Assembly: GCA_016869045.1 (NCBI GenBank) | Contig: VGFC01000016.1 | Location: forward strand, 1 to 38,464 | Length of the DNA: 38,464 nt | From: Armatimonadota bacterium | GTDB lineage: Bacteria > Armatimonadota > Zipacnadia > Zipacnadales > VGFC01 | Direction: 5' to 3' | Part shown: positions 5,329 through 23,069 of the stretch, one piece after another | How positions within the stretch are numbered: the stretch's first letter is position 1 | Layout of the letters: every line of letters starts with the position of its first letter | Program-made: the position numbers and the translations under genes | The notes under the pieces: generated by a model | Database searches by the model: none | Told to the model about the DNA's origin: nothing | The model's input: the letters and a program-made list of their open reading frames with translations, nothing else

Positions 5329-7194
5329 GTGGCCACACCTGGGGGCCGCGCGGAGGAGGCGTCCTATGCGCTGGCCCAGACGCAGCTAGCACGCAGGCGG
5401 CCGAGAGGCAGGCGGCTACGTCGGTCGCTGGCGACTTGGCTGTTTGGGAGCGTTGCGGGGCTTGTCTTTGTGGCCGCCTTCCGGGTTGGCTACTTCGGGA
5501 GCCTCACCGTTGCATGGCTCGATGGCCTCGTGGTGGGCACCGAGCCCACCCCAGTCAGGGTCCCCGTCAGCTTGGTCGTCGCCGGCGATGACGACTTCCG
5601 CAGTCTTGGCGAGTGGCCGCCCCCCAGCCTCTTCCCCAGAGACGTTCTGAGCGACACCATCAGGGCAGCAGTCGACGCGGGAGCAGCTGCCGTCTGCATC
5701 GACCTGCTGCTCGACGTTCCCTCCGCTCAGGACGACGCTCTCGAATCATCGCTGCGTACGGTCGCTGAGCGAGGCACTCCCGTCTTCCTGGTGTGCAGTG
5801 CGTGGTCAGCGGAGCCATCCCGGCCCCTTGAACGGTTCGCGCAGGTGGCTCGGGTGGCGTGCGCCGACGTCCTCGCGGGTCCCCAAGGCGAGGCTCGGGC
5901 GGTTCCGCCGACCGTGACGACACCGTGGGGTCGCAAACCCTCTCTCGCCTTTGCGGTGGCGGAGTCGTTGGCGGCTCAGGCGGGCCATGGCGGACGCCTC
6001 CCGGACCGGTCCGTTCCGATCGACTGCGCACAGGTGGAGCGGAGCGTAGGGCGCTACCCACTCTTGGCCGTGAACCGCCACGCAATCCCTCGCAACTGGC
6101 TGGCCGGCTCAATCGTCGTGATTGGACGAACCGACAGCCTGGGGGGCGATGTGCTGCTCATCGCTGACCCACGGGGCCTCGCCGAAGGCGGGACCCTGGT
6201 GCGCTCCGTCCCGGGTGTCGACGTGCAGGCTGCTGCGCTGTGCGCGCTGCTGGCCTCGCGCCGGCGAGCACAGGCAGGTCCGCTCGTGGACGCTGCCTTG
6301 GTGCTCTGCGCAGCCGGGATACTGACCTGGCTCCTGACACGCCTGGGCAATGTTGTGGGGACAGCCGTCGGCTTCGGGGTCATCCTGGTCGGTGGCGGGG
6401 CAGTCAGTCTCGGCCTGTTCGGCACGACGGGACACATACTGGGGCTTGCGCCGGTACTGCTCGGCAGCGCGACGCACGCCATGGCCATCGGTTGGCTGGA
6501 CCGGTGGCGGCTGTCGCGGACGCTGGGCCAACTCGTCAGCCCTGATCTGGCGGCCCGGATCGAGCGTTCCCTGGAGGTCGTGCCAGGTGAAGGACAGGTG
6601 TCGCCCGTGGCCGCGCTGACGTTCGACATTCGCGGCTCCACCGAACTCGCCTCCAGGGCTCGGCCGGAGCATGTCGGAAGCCTCCTCGCGGATCTGTTGG
6701 GTGTCGTCGCAGCCGAGGTTGTGGATGCCGGCGGGATGGTGAGCAAGTTCCTTGGTGATGGTCTACTGGCGCTGTTCGTGTCCGAGGGGAAGCATCACGA
6801 TGCCGGGCAGCGCGCTCTCCGGGCAGTGGAAGGCATCGACAGGGCAGTTGCCGGCGGGCCTGCGGCGGCGTGGTCTGAGGCCACTGGCGCGCGATTGGAC
6901 TACGTCGTCTCCGCCACCTACGGCTCAGCGTGGATCGGGTTCGTGGGCTTCCACCGACGTGCGGAGTTCACGGCCCTGGGTCAGACGATCAACCTGGCCT
7001 TCGAGTTGCAGGAGGCCGCCAAGCGAGACGGCTTCAGGATCCTGGTCAGTGCCGATCTTGCCGGCGAGGTTGGTGCCGAAACCGTCGCCCGCTACGCGGC
7101 GGTCACGGTGGAGCGCCCAAGAGGCGAAGGCACGTGGCCATGCCTCACGCTGTCCTGTACTGACTGGAGCGAGGAACCCCATGGAGCCCCGTGA
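5329..7194 (+). CDS. CHASE2-domain membrane protein with class III cyclase-like domain
   Basis: A 621-residue protein starting at GTG 5329, eight bases after GAAGGGG. After a basic N-terminus there is a membrane segment (about 37-57), an extracytoplasmic CHASE2-like sensor (about 65-310), several membrane segments (about 315-390) and a C-terminal class III nucleotide cyclase fold (about 425-590). Both metal aspartates are present (D433 in TFDIRGST, D477 in KFLGDG) and the purine lysine K473 is kept. The second purine residue, normally Asp, is Gln (Q552 in ALGQTINLA). The transition-state Asn is kept (N555) but the transition-state Arg is Glu (E559). By family knowledge, loss of that Arg predicts weak or absent cyclase activity; it may act as a nucleotide-binding relay. 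It overlaps the next gene by 14 bases and heads an operon with FecR-like and TPR-CHAT proteins. Confidence 0.88.
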   Translation: MATPGGRAEEASYALAQTQLARRRPRGRRLRRSLATWLFGSVAGLVFVAAFRVGYFGSLTVAWLDGLVVGTEPTPVRVPVSLVVAGDDDFRSLGEWPPPSLFPRDVLSDTIRAAVDAGAAAVCIDLLLDVPSAQDDALESSLRTVAERGTPVFLVCSAWSAEPSRPLERFAQVARVACADVLAGPQGEARAVPPTVTTPWGRKPSLAFAVAESLAAQAGHGGRLPDRSVPIDCAQVERSVGRYPLLAVNRHAIPRNWLAGSIVVIGRTDSLGGDVLLIADPRGLAEGGTLVRSVPGVDVQAAALCALLASRRRAQAGPLVDAALVLCAAGILTWLLTRLGNVVGTAVGFGVILVGGGAVSLGLFGTTGHILGLAPVLLGSATHAMAIGWLDRWRLSRTLGQLVSPDLAARIERSLEVVPGEGQVSPVAALTFDIRGSTELASRARPEHVGSLLADLLGVVAAEVVDAGGMVSKFLGDGLLALFVSEGKHHDAGQRALRAVEGIDRAVAGGPAAAWSEATGARLDYVVSATYGSAWIGFVGFHRRAEFTALGQTINLAFELQEAAKRDGFRILVSADLAGEVGAETVARYAAVTVERPRGEGTWPCLTLSCTDWSEEPHGAP

Positions 7195-8089
7195 TAGCAC
7201 ATCTTCCGCTGCCGTCGTCGTGTTGAGCCTGCTGTCGGGCTTCGCTTGGGCGTCGAACGAGCCGGTGGCGGCGGTCGTGACGATGACCTGCGGTCCCGTG
7301 TCCGTGCTGCGCGAGGGAAGGAGCTCGGAAGCCTGCCCCCCATACGGCCTCCACGTCGGTGACCAGGTGATCGTGGGGCCAAAGGGCCAGGCGGTCCTGT
7401 GCTTTCCGTGCGGGCCCCCTCAGCGGATCGTGGCCGGCGAGGAGAAGAGCACGTTCGAGGTCAAGCCACCGGGGTCACCTCCGGAGAACCCGGGACCCGT
7501 GAAGCGGATCTGGCGCTACATCGTCGCGCGTCTGCGGCCGCCCGGCGACGCAGCCCGTCACATCTCCCCGGCGAGCCGACCTCTCGACACGGGCGGTCCT
7601 GACGGTCTCTGGCCGCGCGACGCGCTCGTGACGTGCGCGCAACCGGACTTCGCGTGGCGTCCGAGCCGAGGGGGAAGCTACCAGCTCATCATCCTCGATG
7701 GCAAAGGCCGGCGGGTCTGGCAGAGCCCGCCGTCGAGAGAGCCGCAGACCACCTATCCCCTAGATGCCCCCGCGCTGCGGCGCGGGGTCGAGTACTGGTG
7801 GGAGGTGGCGGACACGGAGACCGGGGCCCGATCAACAGACGGGCCCTATTGGTTCCGCATCGCTGACCCCGACCGAGTCGAGGCCGCCGTTGCTGCTGCC
7901 GCTGCGCTCGACAGGAACGCTGAGGGGAGCGATCCGGCAGCCTTGGTCACGGCCAAAGCCCTACTCATGGCGTCCCGGGGGTTCGGCGGCGAGGCGGTCC
8001 GACTGCTCGCTCGGCAGACGGAGCCGGCCCTGACCAAGGCTGAACTGGAGTCATGGCTCCCACTGCTCGCCGCGCGAGAGGTGCCTTAG
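7181..8089 (+). CDS. Secreted FecR-like protein
   Basis: A 302-residue protein. ATG 7181 lies within the last codons of the cyclase gene and is preceded by GCGAGGA, so translation is probably coupled. Residues 1-25 form a signal peptide (VVVLSLLSGFAWAS). Residues of about 30-95 resemble the FecR/LysM-less sensor fold: a CGPVSVLREG strand, then GDQVIVGPKGQAVLCF. After a proline-rich linker, about 150-225 form a fibronectin-like beta domain (PDFAWRPS, YQLIILDGKG, GVEYWWEVAD), followed by an Ala-rich helical tail. FecR-type domains usually sense or transmit envelope signals. DUF928-type partners of CHAT proteins in cyanobacteria have a loosely similar layout, but I cannot claim that family. It lies between the CHASE2 protein and the TPR-CHAT protein, so a shared envelope-signalling role is likely but inferred. 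Confidence 0.75.
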   Translation: MEPRDSTSSAAVVVLSLLSGFAWASNEPVAAVVTMTCGPVSVLREGRSSEACPPYGLHVGDQVIVGPKGQAVLCFPCGPPQRIVAGEEKSTFEVKPPGSPPENPGPVKRIWRYIVARLRPPGDAARHISPASRPLDTGGPDGLWPRDALVTCAQPDFAWRPSRGGSYQLIILDGKGRRVWQSPPSREPQTTYPLDAPALRRGVEYWWEVADTETGARSTDGPYWFRIADPDRVEAAVAAAAALDRNAEGSDPAALVTAKALLMASRGFGGEAVRLLARQTEPALTKAELESWLPLLAAREVP

Positions 8090-8137
8090 GCAGGCCGCTT
8101 GGGTCCTGCAGCGTTGCTGCGCAGGGAGGTGTGCACG

Positions 8138-11011
8138 ATGGTGTTGTGGCTGACCCGACTTGCCGCCTTTGCGGTGACTGCAGGACTCGCAACGGGGGGC
8201 GGCACACCGGGCGTCTGCGCAGATGAGACGCCCCTGGAGCAGGCGCTGGACCGGGCTCAGGCCGCCGGCAGAGGAGGGGAGGGCCCCGGCGCCTGGGAGG
8301 CCGTGGCCAAGCTCGCCGAGGAGCTGGGAGAACTCGACAAGGCCGTCGCCTACTGGAACGAGGCGGCATGGGCCTGCGAGAACACGGGGCAGCTCGGCCG
8401 GGCGATAGCGTGTTTGGACCACGAACGAGGCATCCACCAAAGCCGAGGCAATGCTGAGCAGCAGGCGAAGTGCTTGATGCAGATCGCCTTCATCTACGAC
8501 AAGGCTGGCCAGTTCCTGGAGGGCCTGGAGGCGCGGAAGCGCTCGGTGCCCCTGTGGCGCGAATCGGAGAGTGAGGTCGGACTCGCGTGGGCCGAAGCCG
8601 GGATCGCCCTGCAGGACCACCGCGAGGGACGCTACGATGTTGCGGTGCCGGCCTATGAGCGCGCCATCGCCGTATTCGCCAAGAAGGGAGCCACGAGTCT
8701 GCAGGGCACGTTCATGAACAACCTCGGCGAGGCCCTGAGGGAGACCGATCGCCTGGATGAGGCGGCCGAGTGCTTCAGGGCCTACGTAGACCTCGTAAAG
8801 GACATCGACCGGGGCTTCCAGGTCGCCCAGGGACTCACGAACCTGGGCAACGTCTACTTCGAGAAGGCCGACTATGACCGAGCTCTCGACTACCATCTCA
8901 AGGCCCTGTCCCATGCCGCAAACATCGAGATCCGCAGTCACACGATGGAGAACATCGCGAGTCTCTACCAGCTCATGGGCGACTACCCGAACGCCAGGCT
9001 CTACTACGGAGCCGCCCTCTCCCTGGCGCGCGACTTCGGGAGTCGCGAAGAGGAGCTCAGGGCCCTGTCGGGCCTGGGAACCGTGCTCCTCGAGACCGGG
9101 CTTTGTCCGGAGGCGGTCGAGCGCTTCGAGGAAGGCCTGCGCCTGTCAACGGAGCTGGCACTCCGGACACGCATGGCCGACTTCCGAGAGCGTCTGGGTG
9201 AAGCCTGTCGCGTCGTGGGTCACTACCCCGAAGCCAGACTGGACCTGGAGCGCGCCCTCGCGCTCTACCGGGAGGAAGGCCGCCGTCGCGAAGCGGCGAC
9301 CGTGCTCCTCGGCCTCGCACGAGTTGGCCAGCAAGCCGGAGAGTACAGCGCGGCGCTGCAGTCCGTGGCCCAAGCCCGGGAGGGCATGGGCGACGATCCG
9401 CTGCTGAGCATGAAGGCGGGGATCACCGAGGGAGACTCCCTCACATGCCTCTCGCGGCTGGACGATGCCGCCGAGGCGTACCGTTCAGCCATGGTGGCGG
9501 CCGAGCGGGTCCGTGAGGGCTCCGCTGATCCCTATGTCGCCGCTCAGATTGGCGCTTCGGGCAGTGTGGCGTACGCGCGGCTCGTCGGCTTGGAGGCCCA
9601 ACGGGGGAGGCCGGAGGAGGCCTTCGCGTGCGCCGAGCGGGGTCGTGGTCAGGCACTCCTGCACGTCTTGGCCGCCGGCGGGATGCGCTTGACCCGTGGC
9701 ATGACGGAGGACGAAGTGCGGGAGGAACAGCAGCTTCTCGGGCGCGTCGGTCTGCTCACTCGGCAGTTGGCCCGGACGGACGAGCAGACGGACACGGACC
9801 GGCTGCACCGGGAGCGTGAAGAGGCGCGCCGGCTTCTGCGGGAGTTTCAGACGGCGCTGTTGGCTCGGCATCCGGAACTGGCCGTCCGGCGTGCGGAAGT
9901 GTCTCCCCTCACGGTCGAGGAGGCGCGCTCGTTCCTGCCCGATCACACGGCAATCGTGGAGTTCGTGGTTGACGAGGACCGAACAACGGTCCTCGTGGTC
10001 CCAGACCGCTCGGGCCGCCAACCTGTGGCCTTCGTGCTGGACGTCGGTCACGCCGCCCTGGCAGAGAAGACCCGCCTCCTGACGGCGCAACTGAACCAGA
10101 TGCGTCGGCGGCCGGATGGGCGGACCGACGGGTACCGCCAGACGGCGGAGACGTTCCACCTGCAGCTCCTGGGTCCGTGCGAGAGGCAGCTGTCTGGCGT
10201 CCGCCGTCTCATCGTCGTCCCCGACGGGCCCCTGCACGACTTGCCGTTCCAGGCGCTCGTAGCCAACGGCCGCTACCTGATCGAGACGTGCGAGGTGGTC
10301 TACGCTCCCAGTGCCACGCTACTGCGTCGTCTCCGAGGCGAGTCCTTCGGAGCGAGAGATCGGGCTCCGGCAACCGGCACGCTGGTCTGCGCCGACCCGG
10401 ATTTCGGCGGGCGGTACTGGCGTCCGGCAACCACTCGGGCCACGCTGGGCTCCCTGCCGTTTGCCCGGGACGAAGGCGAGGCCATCAAGACCGTGTACGG
10501 CGACGACGCCGTGCTCCTGGTTGGGGCGGGAGCCACGGAGGAACAGGTCAAGCAGGCCGCACCGGGGCGGCGGATCCTGCACTTCGCGACCCACGGTCTC
10601 ATCGACGCAGTGAACCCGCTCTACAGCGCGCTAGTGCTCGCCCAGCCGCCCGAGGGGTCTTGCGAGGATGGCTTCCTGGAAGCCCGGGAGATCGCCGGCC
10701 TGGAGTGGAACGCCGACATGGCCGTCCTGTCGGCCTGCGAGAGCGCGAACGGGCGAACCATGGGCGGCGAAGGCGTCATGGGGCTGACGTGGGCGCTTCT
10801 GTGCGCAGGGGTACCGACTACGGTTGCGACGCAGTGGCGGGTCGATGATCGGTCAACCTCGTTGCTCATGCGCGAGTTCTACCACCAGCTCGCCAAGGGC
10901 AAGCCCAAGGCCGCAGCGTTGCGTGCCGCACAACTCAGCCTGCTGAGAGACCGGCAGTATGCCGAGCCCTACTACTGGGCGCCCTTTGTCCTGATCGGAC
11001 GCTGGGATTGA
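8138..11011 (+). CDS. Secreted TPR-CHAT protein (caspase-like peptidase)
   Basis: A 957-residue protein. ATG 8138 follows GGGAGGT and starts a signal peptide ([13 protein letters not shown], cleavage near VCA). The frame is open 13 codons earlier, but without a ribosome site and with a worse signal. Residues of about 35-440 are tetratricopeptide repeats (for example [19 protein letters not shown] and [18 protein letters not shown]). A helical region follows to about 610. The CHAT domain covers about 630-957. The caspase-type dyad is intact: H819 in HFATHG and C867 in LSACESANG. The C-terminus shows [14 protein letters not shown] and the [10 protein letters not shown] end typical of CHAT proteins. 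Family knowledge says CHAT domains are cysteine peptidases related to separase and caspases; the substrate is unknown. It is the third gene after the CHASE2 and FecR-like genes, 48 bases downstream. Confidence 0.93.
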
Positions 11012-11054: not shown

Positions 11055-11744
11055 ATGAGACGAGCAGCTGCCTTCACTCTGATCGAGCTTCTTGTCGTCA
11101 TCGCGATCATCGCGATCCTCGCGGCCATCCTCTTCCCGGTGTTCGCGAGGGCGCGGAACAGCGCAAGGCAAGCCGCTTGTGTCTCGAACCTGAAGCAGAT
11201 TGGGATGGCCTTCCTGATGTACGCCCAGGACTACGACGAGCACCTGCCGAGCTGCCTCGGTACACCGGGCGTCGTCATTGGGGACTTCGGCGCATCGGGG
11301 TCGGCGGCGGAGGCTCACGCCCGGCATGAGAGCGGCTACCCCGCCGAGATCGCCCCCTACACCAAGATGGGCAAGTTCTTCCACTGCCCCAGCGACCCCA
11401 GCAGCACGAGCCGCCTCTCGTACTACTGGCGCTGGTGTCTGGAGTGCGCCGCCGTTCAGTGGGGAAGGCCGGTCCGCCTGCAGGACCGGGCCGTACCCGC
11501 CCAGCAGGTCATTATCCACGAGCATCGGGACTTCCATGGTGAGAACCTGGGGATCCCCGACCCTCGACCTGGCATCCGCACGGTAGTGGTCTGCTACGGT
11601 GATGGGCACGTGAAGGTCTACCAGGGGTTTACGGGCAGCACCCCATGGGGCGCAATGAACGACCCGAACTGGTTCGATGCTTCACTGGGTGGTTCCACGA
11701 ACCCCGAGCGGTTCTGGGATCCGCGGATCGGCTACGATAGCTGA
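11055..11744 (+). CDS. Prepilin-type N-terminal cleavage/methylation protein, DUF1559/H-X9-DG type
   Basis: A 229-residue protein with ATG 11055 after AAAGGAGG. The N-terminus is a short basic leader followed by [19 protein letters not shown], the type IV prepilin signal cut before the Phe. [20 protein letters not shown] segment and AQDYDE follow. The pattern [10 protein letters not shown] near the end is the H-X9-DG-like motif of this family. Such proteins are exported pseudopilin-like proteins of unknown role that occur in large numbers in Armatimonadota and Planctomycetota genomes. It is 43 bases after the TPR-CHAT gene and could be read from the same transcript. Confidence 0.92.
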
Positions 11745-11790
11745 AGCGGGCTGTGACCGGGACTGCCACGAGGCGGGGCAAGGGAGGCAA

Positions 11791-12480
11791 GTGACTGTGA
11801 CCAGAGGCTTCACCCTCATCGAACTCCTCGTCGTGATCGCGATCATCGCGATCCTGGCGGCCATCCTATTCCCGGTGTTCGCCAAGGCACGCGAGAAGGC
11901 CCGACAGACGTCCTGCCTTGCCAACATGCGCCAGCTCGGGATGGCGTCACTCATGTATGCGCAGGACTACGATGAGATCTTCCCGGACTGCGTTGTGGAC
12001 TTCGACAACTCGCTGACGTGGTCCATTGGGGACTACACCTGGCGCATTCTCCTCGTTCCGTACTGCCGCAATGCGCAGATCCTACAGTGCCCCAGCTACG
12101 GCCCGGGTGGCGCGCTGTTCGATGGGTCGATCCCCGACTACCGCCAGCGCGGGGGCTATGGGATGAACATCGTGCACGCCGTCGCGTACAACCCGGCGCC
12201 ACCCACGCCGCCGCCGGCAAAGCGGCTGGCCGCCATCCAAGACCCAGCATCGGTCATAGCGTACACGGACATGGACAACGACTACAGCACTTCGGGGCCA
12301 CCACGCCTCCAGTACACGTACAAGACGCACGACTTCCTCCGCGGCGATTGGCGAGCTGCCGGATCGCGTCACAATGCCGGCGCCAACCATGCCTTCTGCG
12401 ACGGACACAGCAAGTGGCTGACGCCGACGGCCGTGCCATGTGGGACTGGTGACTGCTACTGGTCAGTTGAGAAGGAGTGA
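11791..12480 (+). CDS. Prepilin-type protein, DUF1559/H-X9-DG type (second copy)
   Basis: A 229-residue protein. GTG 11791 is chosen because AGGGAGG lies just upstream and it gives a short basic leader before [18 protein letters not shown]; a frame open to 11677 would give an unnatural leader. It has [25 protein letters not shown], and near the C-terminus [19 protein letters not shown], the complete H-X9-DG type motif. It is homologous to the preceding gene in the N-terminal 70 residues and diverges later. It lies 46 bases downstream of it in the same direction, so this is a tandem pair. Confidence 0.92.
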
Positions 12481-18579: not shown

Positions 18580-20748
18580 TTACGACTTGGGTTTGCTGTG
18601 GCGGGCGATCTCAACGCGCAGGCGAGTGGCCCATTTGCCGTATTCGCTGTTCGGGTCGGCCTCCTGGACCTTGGCCAGTTGCTCGTCCGCCTTCTTCACA
18701 TCGCCGGCGTACAGGCACATCTGCGCGAAGGCGACCAATCGCGCCGAATCGGTGGGGTGCGGCCGGTGGATTCTGTCGAACTCCTCGGCCCGGCGGCGGA
18801 TGATGTCGGCGATGTAGCCATGGGGCATGGGTCGGCAGACGACAAAGAAGAACCAGATGTACACCAGGCCCATGAAGCCCCAGAAGTAGGGCATTCCGCG
18901 GGACCTGACGGCTCGGGCGATCGTGCGGCGCTCCTCCCGCACGAGGCGGGTCTCGGTCTGGCTCAGGACGCTGACCTCGGCCGGGCTCAACTGACGCACG
19001 ACCGTCGGTCGGTTCGCCTCGGCCTCCGCCTGGGCGGCTTGGCCGGCCTCGACCTTGCGCACGTCGCTCACTTCCTGCGTGTCGCCCGTTTCCTTGTCGG
19101 TGAACTTGAGTTCGCGCGTGACCTCCACGGTGCCATCGCGGACGGCGACCTGCCCCTCCTTGTCTCCTACGGCCACCTGGAAGGAGGTGCCGCGCACACC
19201 GAGGGTCAGGATGGGTGTCTCCACCGAGAACTCCGAGTCGCGGGTCGCCAGGCGGCGGACGCGGGCGAAGAAGGCCCCGGCGCGGGCGTTGAGGCGCGTG
19301 AGGGTGGCGCCGCTGAGGCGTTTGGTCAGATCCGTGACCGCTAGCTCGCTGCCCCCTGTGAGCCGGACCTCGGACCCGTCGTGGAAGCGAAGAAGCGCTT
19401 CGCCCGTGGCGCCGGTGGTCACGAGATCGTTGGTGCGCAGAATGGTGCCTTCGGGCGCCGGCACGGCCTGCAGAGCGCCGGGATGTGTGACGAGGACTTC
19501 CCCAGAAACACGGGCGAGCACTGCGCAGCCATCGGGCACCTTGCGCAGGATCGAAGCGCAGACCAGGACGTAGATCACGCTGGACACGATCAGCAGACCA
19601 ACGACCCCCAGCGCCTTCACGACCCAGTGTGTGCGGCGCCAGACGCCGACGAAGATCGGGAGCCGGAGATCGCCGGGGAGGGCCAGGAGGTTGCCCATGC
19701 GGGCCTGCTTGAGCATATGCCAGGTCATGCTCCGCCAACGGTCGCCCAGGATACCGACGGCCAGGTACGGGATTTCGGCGATGGGGCCGGCGACACGCAG
19801 GCCCACCTGGCTGGAGAGCCAGTCCGTGGTGGCGACGACCGCCGCGCCGACGGTGACGGTCCGCAGGTTGCCGATGCCGCCGGCGACGGAGCCGCCGCCG
19901 ATCAGTGCCGCAGCCAGTGGAGTGAGCAGCCAGAGAAGCTGCCCACCCAGGCCGATCGCAGGGAGCCCCGAGCAGGCGATGAGCAGGCCGGCGGTTCCGG
20001 CCATGAAGCCGCTGGCGAGGAAGCTGGCCAGGATTCGGGAGGCTGTGGCCCGGCCCTCGGCCTCGGCGCGATGAGGGGCCGTGCCGACCGCCAGGAAGGT
20101 GGGGCGGTTGAACAGCACCTTCGCCAGCAGGAGCGCCGCAAGGAAGAGGGTCAGCACTACCGGTATATGCAGGACGTCGGTCTCGCCGAGGGAGTTGAGG
20201 AAGGGGTTGCTCACCGCAAGGTCACTGTGCGAGGTGAAGTGAGTGGAGACCTGGAGCGCGACCGCGCCGGTGGCGATGGTGATCATGGCGGAGGGCAGGC
20301 GCGTCCAGCCCGTCACGAAGCCGTTCAGCAGACCCACGAAACAGCCGACGGTCAGCGCGGCCAGTACCGCCCAACCCGGCCCGATCATCGAGGCCATCAC
20401 GGCGCAGCAGGCCGCCAGGGCCGCCAGGGGTCCTGCCGAGAAGTCATACTGCCCCTTGAGCAAGGGGAAGGTCACGCCCAGGGTCACCAGGCCTACCAGC
20501 CCGAAGGTCAGCAGGAGTTGGCGCCAGCCGAGACCGGAGGGCTGAAGCGCCAGCGCGCCGAGCAGCAGGAGCAGCAGGAGGAGGAAGGGCGCGATCTGGC
20601 CGATGGAGGTCGCCCTCAGCCAGAGCACGGGGTTGTAGCCGAGGGCCTTGCGGATGGTCGCCGGCACCAGCGGCTGGCCGCACTCGTCGCAGAGGCGGGC
20701 GCCGATGGGGTTGTCGTGTCGGCAGCGCGGACAAGGGATGGTGTTCAT
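18580..20748 (-). CDS. Zinc ribbon - RbsC-like permease - FecR - TPR-like fusion protein
   Basis: A 722-residue membrane protein. ATG 20748 is 8 bases after AGGAGA, which lies in the end of the upstream cyclase gene; the two genes are 4 bases apart. Domains in order: a zinc ribbon (C6, C9, C20, C23); an ABC sugar-permease-like BPD_transp_2 domain (about 50-340) with LKGQYDFSAGPLAAL, VGLLNGFVTGW and GGGSVAGGIGNLRTV, as in RbsC; a membrane segment (about 375-397); a FecR domain (about 405-545) with ARVSGEVLV, LVTTGATGEALLRF, and ETPILTLGVRGTSFQVAV; another membrane segment (620-638); and a helical TPR-like tail (about 655-715). No ABC ATPase or sugar-binding protein is nearby, so transport is doubtful; the permease fold may be a sensor. 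Partnership with the adjacent CHASE2 cyclase is inferred. Confidence 0.85.
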   Translation of the reverse strand: MNTIPCPRCRHDNPIGARLCDECGQPLVPATIRKALGYNPVLWLRATSIGQIAPFLLLLLLLLGALALQPSGLGWRQLLLTFGLVGLVTLGVTFPLLKGQYDFSAGPLAALAACCAVMASMIGPGWAVLAALTVGCFVGLLNGFVTGWTRLPSAMITIATGAVALQVSTHFTSHSDLAVSNPFLNSLGETDVLHIPVVLTLFLAALLLAKVLFNRPTFLAVGTAPHRAEAEGRATASRILASFLASGFMAGTAGLLIACSGLPAIGLGGQLLWLLTPLAAALIGGGSVAGGIGNLRTVTVGAAVVATTDWLSSQVGLRVAGPIAEIPYLAVGILGDRWRSMTWHMLKQARMGNLLALPGDLRLPIFVGVWRRTHWVVKALGVVGLLIVSSVIYVLVCASILRKVPDGCAVLARVSGEVLVTHPGALQAVPAPEGTILRTNDLVTTGATGEALLRFHDGSEVRLTGGSELAVTDLTKRLSGATLTRLNARAGAFFARVRRLATRDSEFSVETPILTLGVRGTSFQVAVGDKEGQVAVRDGTVEVTRELKFTDKETGDTQEVSDVRKVEAGQAAQAEAEANRPTVVRQLSPAEVSVLSQTETRLVREERRTIARAVRSRGMPYFWGFMGLVYIWFFFVVCRPMPHGYIADIIRRRAEEFDRIHRPHPTDSARLVAFAQMCLYAGDVKKADEQLAKVQEADPNSEYGKWATRLRVEIARHSKPKS

Positions 20749-20752
20749 GCTC

Positions 20753-22729
20753 TCACTCTCCTGGAGCGGGCGCCGGAGGGGTGCTTGCGGCCGACCTCTT
20801 GCGGTCCGTCAGCTCGAAGACCTCGACCGGCTCCGGATGGCCGCGTACGTTCTGCTCGCCCAGCGGGCGGGACTCGATCTCCTCGGCGACGGCCTCGGCC
20901 ACCGAGCGTGTCACAAGGATGGTGGTGCCGAGTTCCTTGTTGAGGCCCTGCAGGCGGGAGGCCAGGTTGATGACCGATCCGAGCGCCGTGTATTGAGTGC
21001 GGATCTGGGAGCCGAGGTTCCCGACGACCGCTTCGCCCGAGCTAATCCCGATCCCGATGCGCAGCGGCGTGTCCAGGACCTTCTCCTCCTGCCAGCAGCG
21101 GTTCAGCGCGTCCAGCTCGTGGACCATGTTCACGGCCAGGTGGGCGGCGCGAACCATGTGATCCGGCTGGTCATCGAGAGCATTGAAGGTGATGAAGATC
21201 TCGTCGCCGACCAGATTGTCCACCGTGCCATCCAGGTCAAAGGCGAGTTCTGTCATGCGCCCGAAGTAGGTGTTGAGCACGGAGACGACGGCCCGGGGGT
21301 CGGCAGTGCCCATCCACGCTGTGAAGCCGCGGACATCGGCGAATAGCGCCGTGACGGTGCGCAAGACCCCCGCCGACCGGGCCTGAAGCTCCCCCGCCTC
21401 CAGACGCGCGACGAGCTGCGGGGGCGCATAGCGGCCGAACTCCGTACGCAGGCGGCGCCGCGTGCCCTCCTCCGTCGCCAACCGAATCGCCGCCGTCGGC
21501 AGGTAGGCGGCCAGCAGGGCCAGCCCCGGCCCGAGCATCGGCCACACCGTTCGGCTCTCGCTGAAGGCACGCATCGCCAGGGCGTTGTACACCACCAATG
21601 CGAGCAGCAGCGCCGCGAAGCCGACCACTGGGCGCGCCAGCCGCGCCATCAGCGCACCGAGAATCCCCAGCAGGATCGCCAGCCCGAAGACCGTGGCTCG
21701 GTTCACCTCGGTCAGGAAGCTGTTGTGCAGCATGTTCTCCAGAACCTGCGCGTGAATCTCCACGCCGAACATGCCGCCGGGGTACGGGACCACGAAGAAG
21801 TCCTGCAGGCCGGGAGCGGTCAGGCCGACTAGCACGATCTTGTCGGTGAACGTGCCCGGCGAGAAGCGCCCGTCAAGGACATCCCGGAACGAGTAGCGGG
21901 GAACCGTGCCGGTCGGGCCCAGGAAGTTGACGAGCGCGTTGCCCCAGTCGTCAAGCGGCGTCACTTGGCCCGGCGTCAGGACCGCCTGGCTCGCCAGGTC
22001 GAAGCGCATCGCCCCGGGGTCCCACTTCTGGGCGCGCGCAGCAGTGGCCAGCTCGAAGGTCGGGTAGAAGTGGCCGCTGGCCGCGCCTTGAATGAGGAAG
22101 CACGCCCGCCGCAGCGTACCGTCGGGGTCGGGCCGGCCAGCGATGACGCCGGTTCCGGCCGCCGCCTGCGCGAGGGGAGCGATGGGCTGCATTACCCCCG
22201 CCACGCGCGGGGCAAGCCCCTGATGGACGACGATCTGCGGCCTGATCTGGCCCTGCCGGACGAGGAGTTTCGTGGCGGCGCCAATCGGCTGGTCGGAGGG
22301 ATACGCCGCGTGGATGACGCAGCCAGCCTCGCGAGTGGCTGCCGCCAGCGCCACGTCGTCGTCGGGCCTGCCCCGCGAGGGCTCGGAGAAGATCACGTCA
22401 TAGGCGATGGCGCGCGGACGCTCCGACCTGAGGCGCCGAAGGAGCCGCGCGTGCCAGATCCGGTCCCACTCCCATCGGCCGAGTCGGGGGTCGCGGATGC
22501 TTGCCTCGTCGATGGCTATGATGACCACATCGCTCGGCGGGGGAGGCGTGGTGCGGAACCGGTAGCGGGCGTCGAGGGTGCGGAGTTCGAGCGCGTGTAG
22601 CGGCCAGCCGGGGAGGAACAGCGCGGTGCTCACGACGCCCAGAGCGATGCCCAGCGCGCTGCAGCGGAGAATGGGGCCAACAACCGTGTTTCTCGGCCTC
22701 CGCGAGGTGTCCTCGGACACGGGTACCAC
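20753..22729 (-). CDS. CHASE2-domain class III adenylate/guanylate cyclase
   Basis: A 658-residue membrane protein starting at GTG 22729 (no strong ribosome site visible). A membrane segment (about 22-42) precedes a CHASE2 sensor (about 45-325, with ELRTLDARYRFR and VLVGLTAPGLQDF); three membrane segments (about 345-412) connect to a class III cyclase domain (about 455-645). Metal aspartates are D465 (FADVRGFT) and D509 (NLVGDE); transition-state N588 and R592 are intact (INLASRL). The purine-selecting pair is unusual: the expected Lys is N505 and the expected Asp is S585. The enzyme is probably active, but ATP versus GTP preference cannot be read from the usual rule. It is the first gene of a two-gene operon with the permease-FecR fusion. 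Confidence 0.92.
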   Translation of the reverse strand: MVPVSEDTSRRPRNTVVGPILRCSALGIALGVVSTALFLPGWPLHALELRTLDARYRFRTTPPPPSDVVIIAIDEASIRDPRLGRWEWDRIWHARLLRRLRSERPRAIAYDVIFSEPSRGRPDDDVALAAATREAGCVIHAAYPSDQPIGAATKLLVRQGQIRPQIVVHQGLAPRVAGVMQPIAPLAQAAAGTGVIAGRPDPDGTLRRACFLIQGAASGHFYPTFELATAARAQKWDPGAMRFDLASQAVLTPGQVTPLDDWGNALVNFLGPTGTVPRYSFRDVLDGRFSPGTFTDKIVLVGLTAPGLQDFFVVPYPGGMFGVEIHAQVLENMLHNSFLTEVNRATVFGLAILLGILGALMARLARPVVGFAALLLALVVYNALAMRAFSESRTVWPMLGPGLALLAAYLPTAAIRLATEEGTRRRLRTEFGRYAPPQLVARLEAGELQARSAGVLRTVTALFADVRGFTAWMGTADPRAVVSVLNTYFGRMTELAFDLDGTVDNLVGDEIFITFNALDDQPDHMVRAAHLAVNMVHELDALNRCWQEEKVLDTPLRIGIGISSGEAVVGNLGSQIRTQYTALGSVINLASRLQGLNKELGTTILVTRSVAEAVAEEIESRPLGEQNVRGHPEPVEVFELTDRKRSAASTPPAPAPGE

Positions 22730-22751
22730 CGCCCTGGAGAGCCCCAGAAAG

Positions 22752-22772
22752 CCGCCTCGCTGACCGAGGCGG
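22752..22772. promoter_or_regulatory. Hairpin or operator upstream of the cyclase gene
   Basis: CCGCCTCG (22752-22759) and CGAGGCGG (22765-22772) are exact reverse complements with a 5-base loop. It lies 22 bases before the cyclase start on the minus strand, so it could be in the leader transcript or be an operator. No T tract follows. Confidence 0.4.
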
Positions 22773-23069
22773 TCAGGCCAACGTCCCGAGCACGTCGGTG
22801 CAAGTTCCCGTTCGCCAAGCCGGCGCTGTGCTCCTTCTATCTTGGACCCTCGCGCCGCATTCTACCTCGATCTGAGCCCCTGCTACGTGGCGTTAGCGCA
22901 CCCCCACGCGAGGGACCGGGAGCGCCAGGTCGGTGGCGAAGAGGCCCTGGCGAGGACCTGACCTCGCATCGCCAGCAGACGCCCGCGACATCCACGAACG
23001 ACCCCCTGGATGCGCCGACGAACCCGGCAGATTCAGAACTCCTCCGCGCTGAGAGAGGGTGTCTTTAGG

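Follow-up and report, generated by a model that had tools for sequence, protein, structure and literature searches.

A CHASE2 receptor, an MtxA/DUF928-like partner and a predicted exported caspase-fold protease recur together in Armatimonadota, probably as a cell-envelope signalling module

Introduction

Why would a membrane receptor with a CHASE2 sensory domain and a cyclase domain be encoded next to a caspase-fold protease that carries an export signal? The question arises from three adjoining genes in a 38,464-nucleotide stretch from an Armatimonadota bacterium (NCBI GenBank assembly GCA_016869045.1, contig VGFC01000016.1, positions 1 to 38,464 of the forward strand), the whole of which we call the window. 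An initial annotation made from the sequence alone described these genes as an operon of a cyclase-like membrane sensor, a FecR-like protein and a secreted TPR-CHAT protein, with a possible function in envelope stress or cell fate. The operon-like trio is real: three open frames with domain matches follow one another on the same strand, with a 14-base overlap between genes 1 and 2 and a 48-base gap between genes 2 and 3 (Table 1). The envelope location is likewise supported, by a membrane sensor and two predicted exported proteins, and no evidence was found here for the cell-fate role, leaving the earlier interpretation partly supported as a whole. The trio is probably a cell-envelope signalling module, and its gene and domain content indicates that it recurs in the phylum with an exchangeable protease and an exchangeable receptor output.

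The trio recurs across the phylum

A profile of the partner family (gene 2), searched against 291 genomes of the phylum at E ≤ 1e-12, gave 48 matches in 41 genomes. Forty-seven were classed by their surroundings within 6 kb; the 48th (G200:C10; G, C, L and f are our handles for genomes, contigs, loci and families) was lost by the profile used for this classing, yet is a trio by an earlier profile. The conservation in relatives on which the initial annotation had staked its proposal is present, as all three parts stand together in 13 loci from 11 genomes and six families of the phylum: the window and contig C58 of the same genome (f1), G118 and G120 (f32), G049:C3 (f14), G110 (f17), G068:C150 (f22), and six loci in f21 (G192, G193, G197:C12, two in G200, and G201). 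The protease gene lies on the facing strand in G068:C150 and G192. Among the 25 full-length partners, ten lie near CHASE2 as well as a clan CD protease; G200:C10, G193 and G200:C8 bring the trio loci to 13. Matches restricted to the C-terminal part of the partner (n = 16) have CHAT nearby in eight cases and a cyclase in one, those restricted to the N-terminal part have CHASE2 nearby in 5 of 5, and one match of another class has CHAT.

The association is also visible from the protease side. Sixty stretches were taken around the top-scoring CHAT places, leaving out the window, C58, G118 and G120, and were scored for CHASE2 and cyclase by separate profiles. CHASE2 occurs in five of the 60, each time with the partner, against an expectation of 0.78 (P about 0.001) that is derived from the density in the class, 186 CHASE2 matches in 204 Mb, and not from the whole phylum. 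Cyclase without CHASE2 occurs in seven.

Several other arrangements were observed alongside. At L135, L142, L144, L148, L150, L166 and L168, CHAT genes adjoin class III cyclases that have no CHASE2, or are found close to them; the L144 cyclase, when checked, was a cyclase-AAA-TPR protein. Family f45 (L128, L214, L216, L222, L225, L232) holds a CHASE2-free version of the partner/TPR-CHAT pairing, in which TPR-CHAT lies near a partner-like protein that matches in its C-terminal Ig/TPR part; at L128 a sigma-factor-like gene stands in between and the start of the partner resembles, by eye, an anti-sigma zinc-finger protein. A search for related loci that started from the CHAT protein yielded four TPR/CHAT matches, all distant, which are not used as evidence.

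Protease and receptor output as exchangeable parts

Judged by domain content, the protease slot is occupied either by a TPR-CHAT protein or by a predicted exported C14 caspase, and the receptor output is either a cyclase or a HisKA-HATPase-receiver unit. Gene order varies as well. In G049:C3 and G110:C255 the order is CHASE2-cyclase, partner and an exported protein that combines a caspase domain with PEGA and TPR; in G118 and G120 it is TPR-CHAT, CHASE2-histidine kinase-receiver and partner; and in G193, G200 and G201 it is partner, CHAT and CHASE2-cyclase. At two loci, in G200:C8 and G201, a single open frame holds both the partner and the TPR-CHAT part (L170, 6294-10349; L181, 9589-13758). 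The second set in the window's own genome, on C58, has two TPR-CHAT genes. In G068:C655 an nSTAND1-TPR protein is followed by a partner and an exported caspase of the same kind as above; this protein (L118, 3-2024) occupies the place of the receptor.

A tree of CHAT domains (82 rows) needs five changes of the trio label, two of them forced by starred branches. Because so many changes are needed, different CHAT lineages were probably recruited to the module repeatedly.

Cyanobacteria hold a parallel gene set. In 13 of 18 cyanobacterial plasmid DUF928 loci, which we examined, CHASE2 occurs in ten, CHAT in nine (eight by profile and one by annotation at the end of its stretch), both in seven and neither in one; filamentous hemagglutinin (FHA), S-layer/ShlB or FhaC genes accompany seven of the 13. 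All three cyanobacterial CHASE2 proteins scanned carry an N-terminal CHAT-like domain that is diverged (AGHS...NSC).

Domain composition of the three proteins

From profile and structure comparison, the middle protein appears to be MtxA/DUF928-like: it starts with half of a FecR-type domain, to which Ig-like and TPR-like parts are joined. The FecR-like label of the initial annotation holds for the first 80 or so residues: this portion of the partner family aligns with CHASE2-linked FecR proteins over 80 columns (hhalign probability 97.4, E 1.4e-11). A Pfam FecR identity for gene 2 was rejected, as PF04773 gives no match at E ≤ 10 and gene 2 is absent from the FecR matches of its own genome. 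The profile of this N-terminal portion (7253-7495) also matches a PDB antifreeze protein fragment, 5ix9, at E 3e-4. Pfam DUF928 (PF06051) does not match the window's gene 2, and three of seven scanned middle proteins match it below the cut-off (E 0.002-0.033). When a profile of 11 gene 2 relatives (A4) was compared with one of 13 cyanobacterial DUF928 proteins (A3), the two aligned over 172 columns with a probability of 95.4 (E 1.9e-8), against 0.5 for a caspase-protein control. The putative signal peptide of gene 2, MEPRDSTSSAAVVVLSLLSGFAWA, was recognised by eye only; our home-made rule missed it because the n-region has no net charge.

The single-sequence structure model of gene 2 is poor (pLDDT 40.9); modelling the C-terminal half by itself gives a middling result (64.6), in which four helices come after a beta sandwich. 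Two Foldseek searches of 350,542 chains with these poor to middling models placed chains of the MtxA C-terminal domain (4z29) at ranks 2 and 11 for the full model and at ranks 2 and 5 for the C-terminal one (E about 5e-3). These chains gave the longest alignments among the matches listed, spanning 131-164 columns where the surrounding FN3 matches span one domain only. By sequence at E ≤ 10, 4z29 is not among the matches listed (the best 60 of 72, the best 60 of 75 and all 4), nor is it among the matches that VIA lists for gene 2.

Gene 1 scores 54.7 bits for CHASE2 against a Pfam cut-off of 26.3. Its cyclase domain falls under the Pfam cut-off (E 0.18), yet matches solved PDB cyclases at 1.4e-12 and 2.2e-11, and a purpose-built cyclase profile at 2e-28. 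We take D433, K473, D477, T548, N555 and the expected Arg position to be catalytic.

Gene 3 has many TPRs by Pfam, and its CHAT dyad, H819 and C867, is intact as first described, with numbering that is exact from ATG 8138. All 10 trio CHATs tested, a set that does not contain G197, retain H and C, as do 3 of 3 C14 caspases (G049:C3, G110:C255, G068:C655). The signal peptide claimed for gene 3 was found by the home-made rule, which assigns one to all seven module proteases tested from the window, C58 (two), G118, G049, G068:C655 and G110, and to 22 of 46 CHAT frames in the 60 CHAT stretches, versus 49 of 296 other long frames. Export of a TPR-CHAT protein is not special to this locus: of 18 cyanobacterial CHAT proteins inspected by eye, most show an obvious signal peptide at the start. 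None of the five protease frames tested from f21 has one by the rule; there export of the protease, fused or coupled to the partner, may be directed by the partner.

Table 1. Positions in the window of the trio, its domains and associated signals.
Feature	Positions	Strand	Evidence
Gene 1: CHASE2 receptor with C-terminal class III nucleotidyl cyclase domain, 621 aa	5329..7194	+	open frame, Pfam, PDB matches
CHASE2 domain, residues 45-335	5461..6333	+	PF05226 E 1.5e-14; hydropathy peaks on both sides
Cyclase domain; D433, K473, D477, T548, N555 kept, E559 at expected Arg	6511..7104	+	PDB matches, alignment
Gene 2: predicted exported MtxA/DUF928-like partner, 302 aa from ATG	7181..8089	+	open frame, profile comparison, Foldseek
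N-terminal half of FecR-type domain, about residues 25-105	7253..7495	+	hhalign probability 97.4; PF04773 negative
Ig/FN3-like domain, about residues 150-228	7628..7864	+	scans, predicted structure, Foldseek
Four helices, TPR-like, about residues 230-298	7868..8074	+	predicted structure, search
Ribosome-binding-like GGGAGGTG upstream of ATG 8138 of gene 3	8124..8131	+	sequence
Gene 3: predicted exported TPR-CHAT protein, 957 aa from ATG	8138..11011	+	open frame, Pfam
Signal peptide of gene 3 (MVLWLTRL...GVCA)	8138..8221	+	home-made rule; cleavage point by eye
TPR region of gene 3, approximate	8285..9508	+	Pfam
CHAT domain; H819 (10592-10594), C867 (10736-10738)	10139..11002	+	PF12770 E 2.7e-76

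Elsewhere in the window lies an ordinary CHASE2-FecR pair (18580-22861): a second CHASE2-cyclase on the minus strand (20753-22729) and after it, on the same strand, a true FecR protein (18580-20748) that also has a zinc ribbon and a membrane part resembling a permease.

How the module may work

The predicted topology places the CHASE2 sensory domain, the partner and the protease on one side of the membrane and the cyclase on the other. Because a cyclic nucleotide cannot reach the protease, the simplest flow would run from outside to inside, from protease to partner or CHASE2 and on to the cyclase, so that the protease would serve as input rather than effector. We tentatively favour the reading that the target of the exported caspase-fold protease is a complex of CHASE2 and partner, and that its action there changes the cytoplasmic output. 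The partner would dock on the CHASE2 ectodomain, the protease would bind the same complex through its TPRs, and an envelope signal would lead it to cut the partner or the ectodomain. Such a cut would relieve inhibition by CHASE2 and alter the output, a cyclic nucleotide here and a phosphorelay in some relatives; the nucleotide would act through one of the three cyclic nucleotide-binding (cNMP-binding) proteins of the genome. Since plasmid-borne CyaD1 without CHASE2 makes cyclic AMP (cAMP) constitutively in Sinorhizobium meliloti, according to the available part of PMC5498481, ectodomain loss can switch a cyclase on, and a CHASE2-disabling cut could activate this one. A broader proposal makes exported caspase-fold proteases, whether TPR-CHAT or C14, built-in triggers of CHASE2 receptors. 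Proteolysis would then gate a second-messenger switch, members of either clan CD family could fill the protease role, and the cut would be read by a cyclase or by a histidine kinase. This proposal is doubtful at this stage.

Several observations weigh against protease action on the receptor complex. Five of the 25 full-length partners have CHASE2 but no protease nearby, two of these five lying at contig ends; two have a protease only and eight have neither (six of these within 2.1 kb of a contig end). Because many full-length partner loci have no protease gene, the partner can work without one. The trio's distribution is patchy: the genome of the same genus and 39 genomes of the same order yielded no full-length partner. 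The window partner had no match in these 40 genomes in the initial search, and the family profile matches five of them, with FecR-type N-termini only. CHAT genes are common, occurring in 156 of the phylum's 291 genomes, and CHASE2 is absent from 55 of the 60 CHAT loci. Finally, in an alignment of 13 CHASE2 cyclases the window protein has E559 at a position that is Arg in the other 12, so that its catalytic set is incomplete and the earlier wording "cyclase-like" is apt. With the Arg replaced, the window copy may be of low activity, a caveat for this copy and not for the family.

Alternatively, CHASE2 and the partner sense the envelope and the CHAT or caspase protein is the effector, cutting adhesins or two-partner-secretion exoproteins, somewhat as LapG cuts a surface protein. 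The processing of FHA by SphB1 offers a second analogue in outline, as far as the accessible part of its source goes, and adhesin-related genes accompany the cyanobacterial DUF928 loci in the 7 of 13 cases given above. A Caballeronia plasmid bears a CHAT - ShlB/FhaC - filamentous hemagglutinin set, within a type VI secretion cluster (L115), and the CHASE2-FecR operon of Burkholderia controls biofilm (PMC5192318, available part). At the locus itself, however, two prepilin-like genes follow directly 3' of the trio (11055-12480, plus strand), where no adhesin or FhaC was recognised, with no profile search aimed at them, and a cyclic nucleotide in the cytoplasm has no direct way of switching a protease in the periplasm. 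We consider the effector role somewhat unlikely and place action on the receptor complex above it. That CHASE2 and the partner form a unit beside which CHAT lies by chance or as mobile cargo would fit the patchy distribution, the different CHAT lineages and the abundance of CHAT in the phylum; same-strand abutting genes in several families, C14 substitution in the same place, the shared frames and the parallel set in cyanobacteria make it improbable.

It is more improbable still that CHAT is an inactive scaffold, its fold and the TPRs serving only to assemble the receptor complex: the diverged CHAT-like domain of cyanobacterial CHASE2 proteins speaks for this reading, whereas H and C are kept in every trio CHAT and C14 protein tested. 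Caspase-fold proteins act in cell death and defence elsewhere, and the cyclase of gene 1 matches PycC profiles in PADLOC at E 1.8e-12, as gene 3 weakly matches BovA. Yet what the PycC profiles match is the fold common to class III cyclases, PADLOC indicates no complete defence system for any of the three proteins, and export removes the protease from cytosolic targets, so that programmed death or phage defence, with the protease killing the cell on infection, is very unlikely.

Comparison with known systems

Parts of this arrangement are already in print, as far as the accessible portions of the sources show: CHASE2 with FecR or MtxA partners (PMC5498481, PMC5192318, PMC4439547), CHASE2 mentioned once together with DUF928 (PMC5587647), and a metacaspase-CHASE2 fusion (PMC3501461, PMC2853523). 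In literature judged mostly from less than full texts, no CHASE2-partner sets were found whose regular third member is an exported clan CD protease. "CHASE2" and "CHAT domain" were not found together there, and the whole words CHASE2 and CHAT co-occur there in only two papers, a metacaspase survey and an addiction conference volume. What CHASE2 domains recognise is stated to be unknown in the available part of PMC5192318. The compact trio joins this question to that of the role of exported caspase-like proteins, and its exchangeable protease and output make both directly addressable by experiment, which can ask whether the protease cleaves partner or receptor and whether the output is altered.

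Gene 3 shares its TPR-CHAT architecture with Csx29 of type III-E CRISPR (Craspase), but scores 19 bits against a cut-off of 300 for NF041237 and has a signal peptide. In Trichodesmium a caspase-fold protease is likewise tied to CHASE2, as a single protein whose caspase domain is predicted to be cytoplasmic (PMC3501461, PMC2853523, both seen in part). The BiofilmReg operon of Burkholderia resembles the trio in pairing a periplasmic FecR-domain protein with a CHASE2 receptor, and differs, in the portion of PMC5192318 available, by its histidine kinase and response regulator, its LysM domain and the lack of a protease. Similarly, S. meliloti CyaD1 (SMc02176) is a CHASE2 cyclase beside the FecR-domain gene SMc02177, whose product is predicted to be extracytoplasmic, and its cAMP acts via a Crp-type regulator; the accessible part of PMC5498481 names no CHAT or caspase gene.

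The cyanobacterial DUF1822 - CHASE2 - DUF928 - TPR-CHAT sets are like the trio in that CHASE2, DUF928 and an exported TPR-CHAT adjoin, with a DUF928 protein related to gene 2 by profile; they are unlike it in that the CHASE2 proteins scanned bear a CHAT-like domain rather than a cyclase, and in often being accompanied by FhaC/FHA. MtxA (PDB 4z29) of magnetotactic bacteria is an exported protein of about 35 kDa with an N-terminal part followed by Ig-like and TPR domains, an arrangement that gene 2 may share. No sequence match to gene 2 stands among those listed, and no protease is mentioned beside MtxA in the available part of PMC4439547. The same source places a CHASE2 adenylate cyclase gene after mtxA, and because of this shared neighbour the likeness of gene 2 to MtxA appears to be more than a curiosity.

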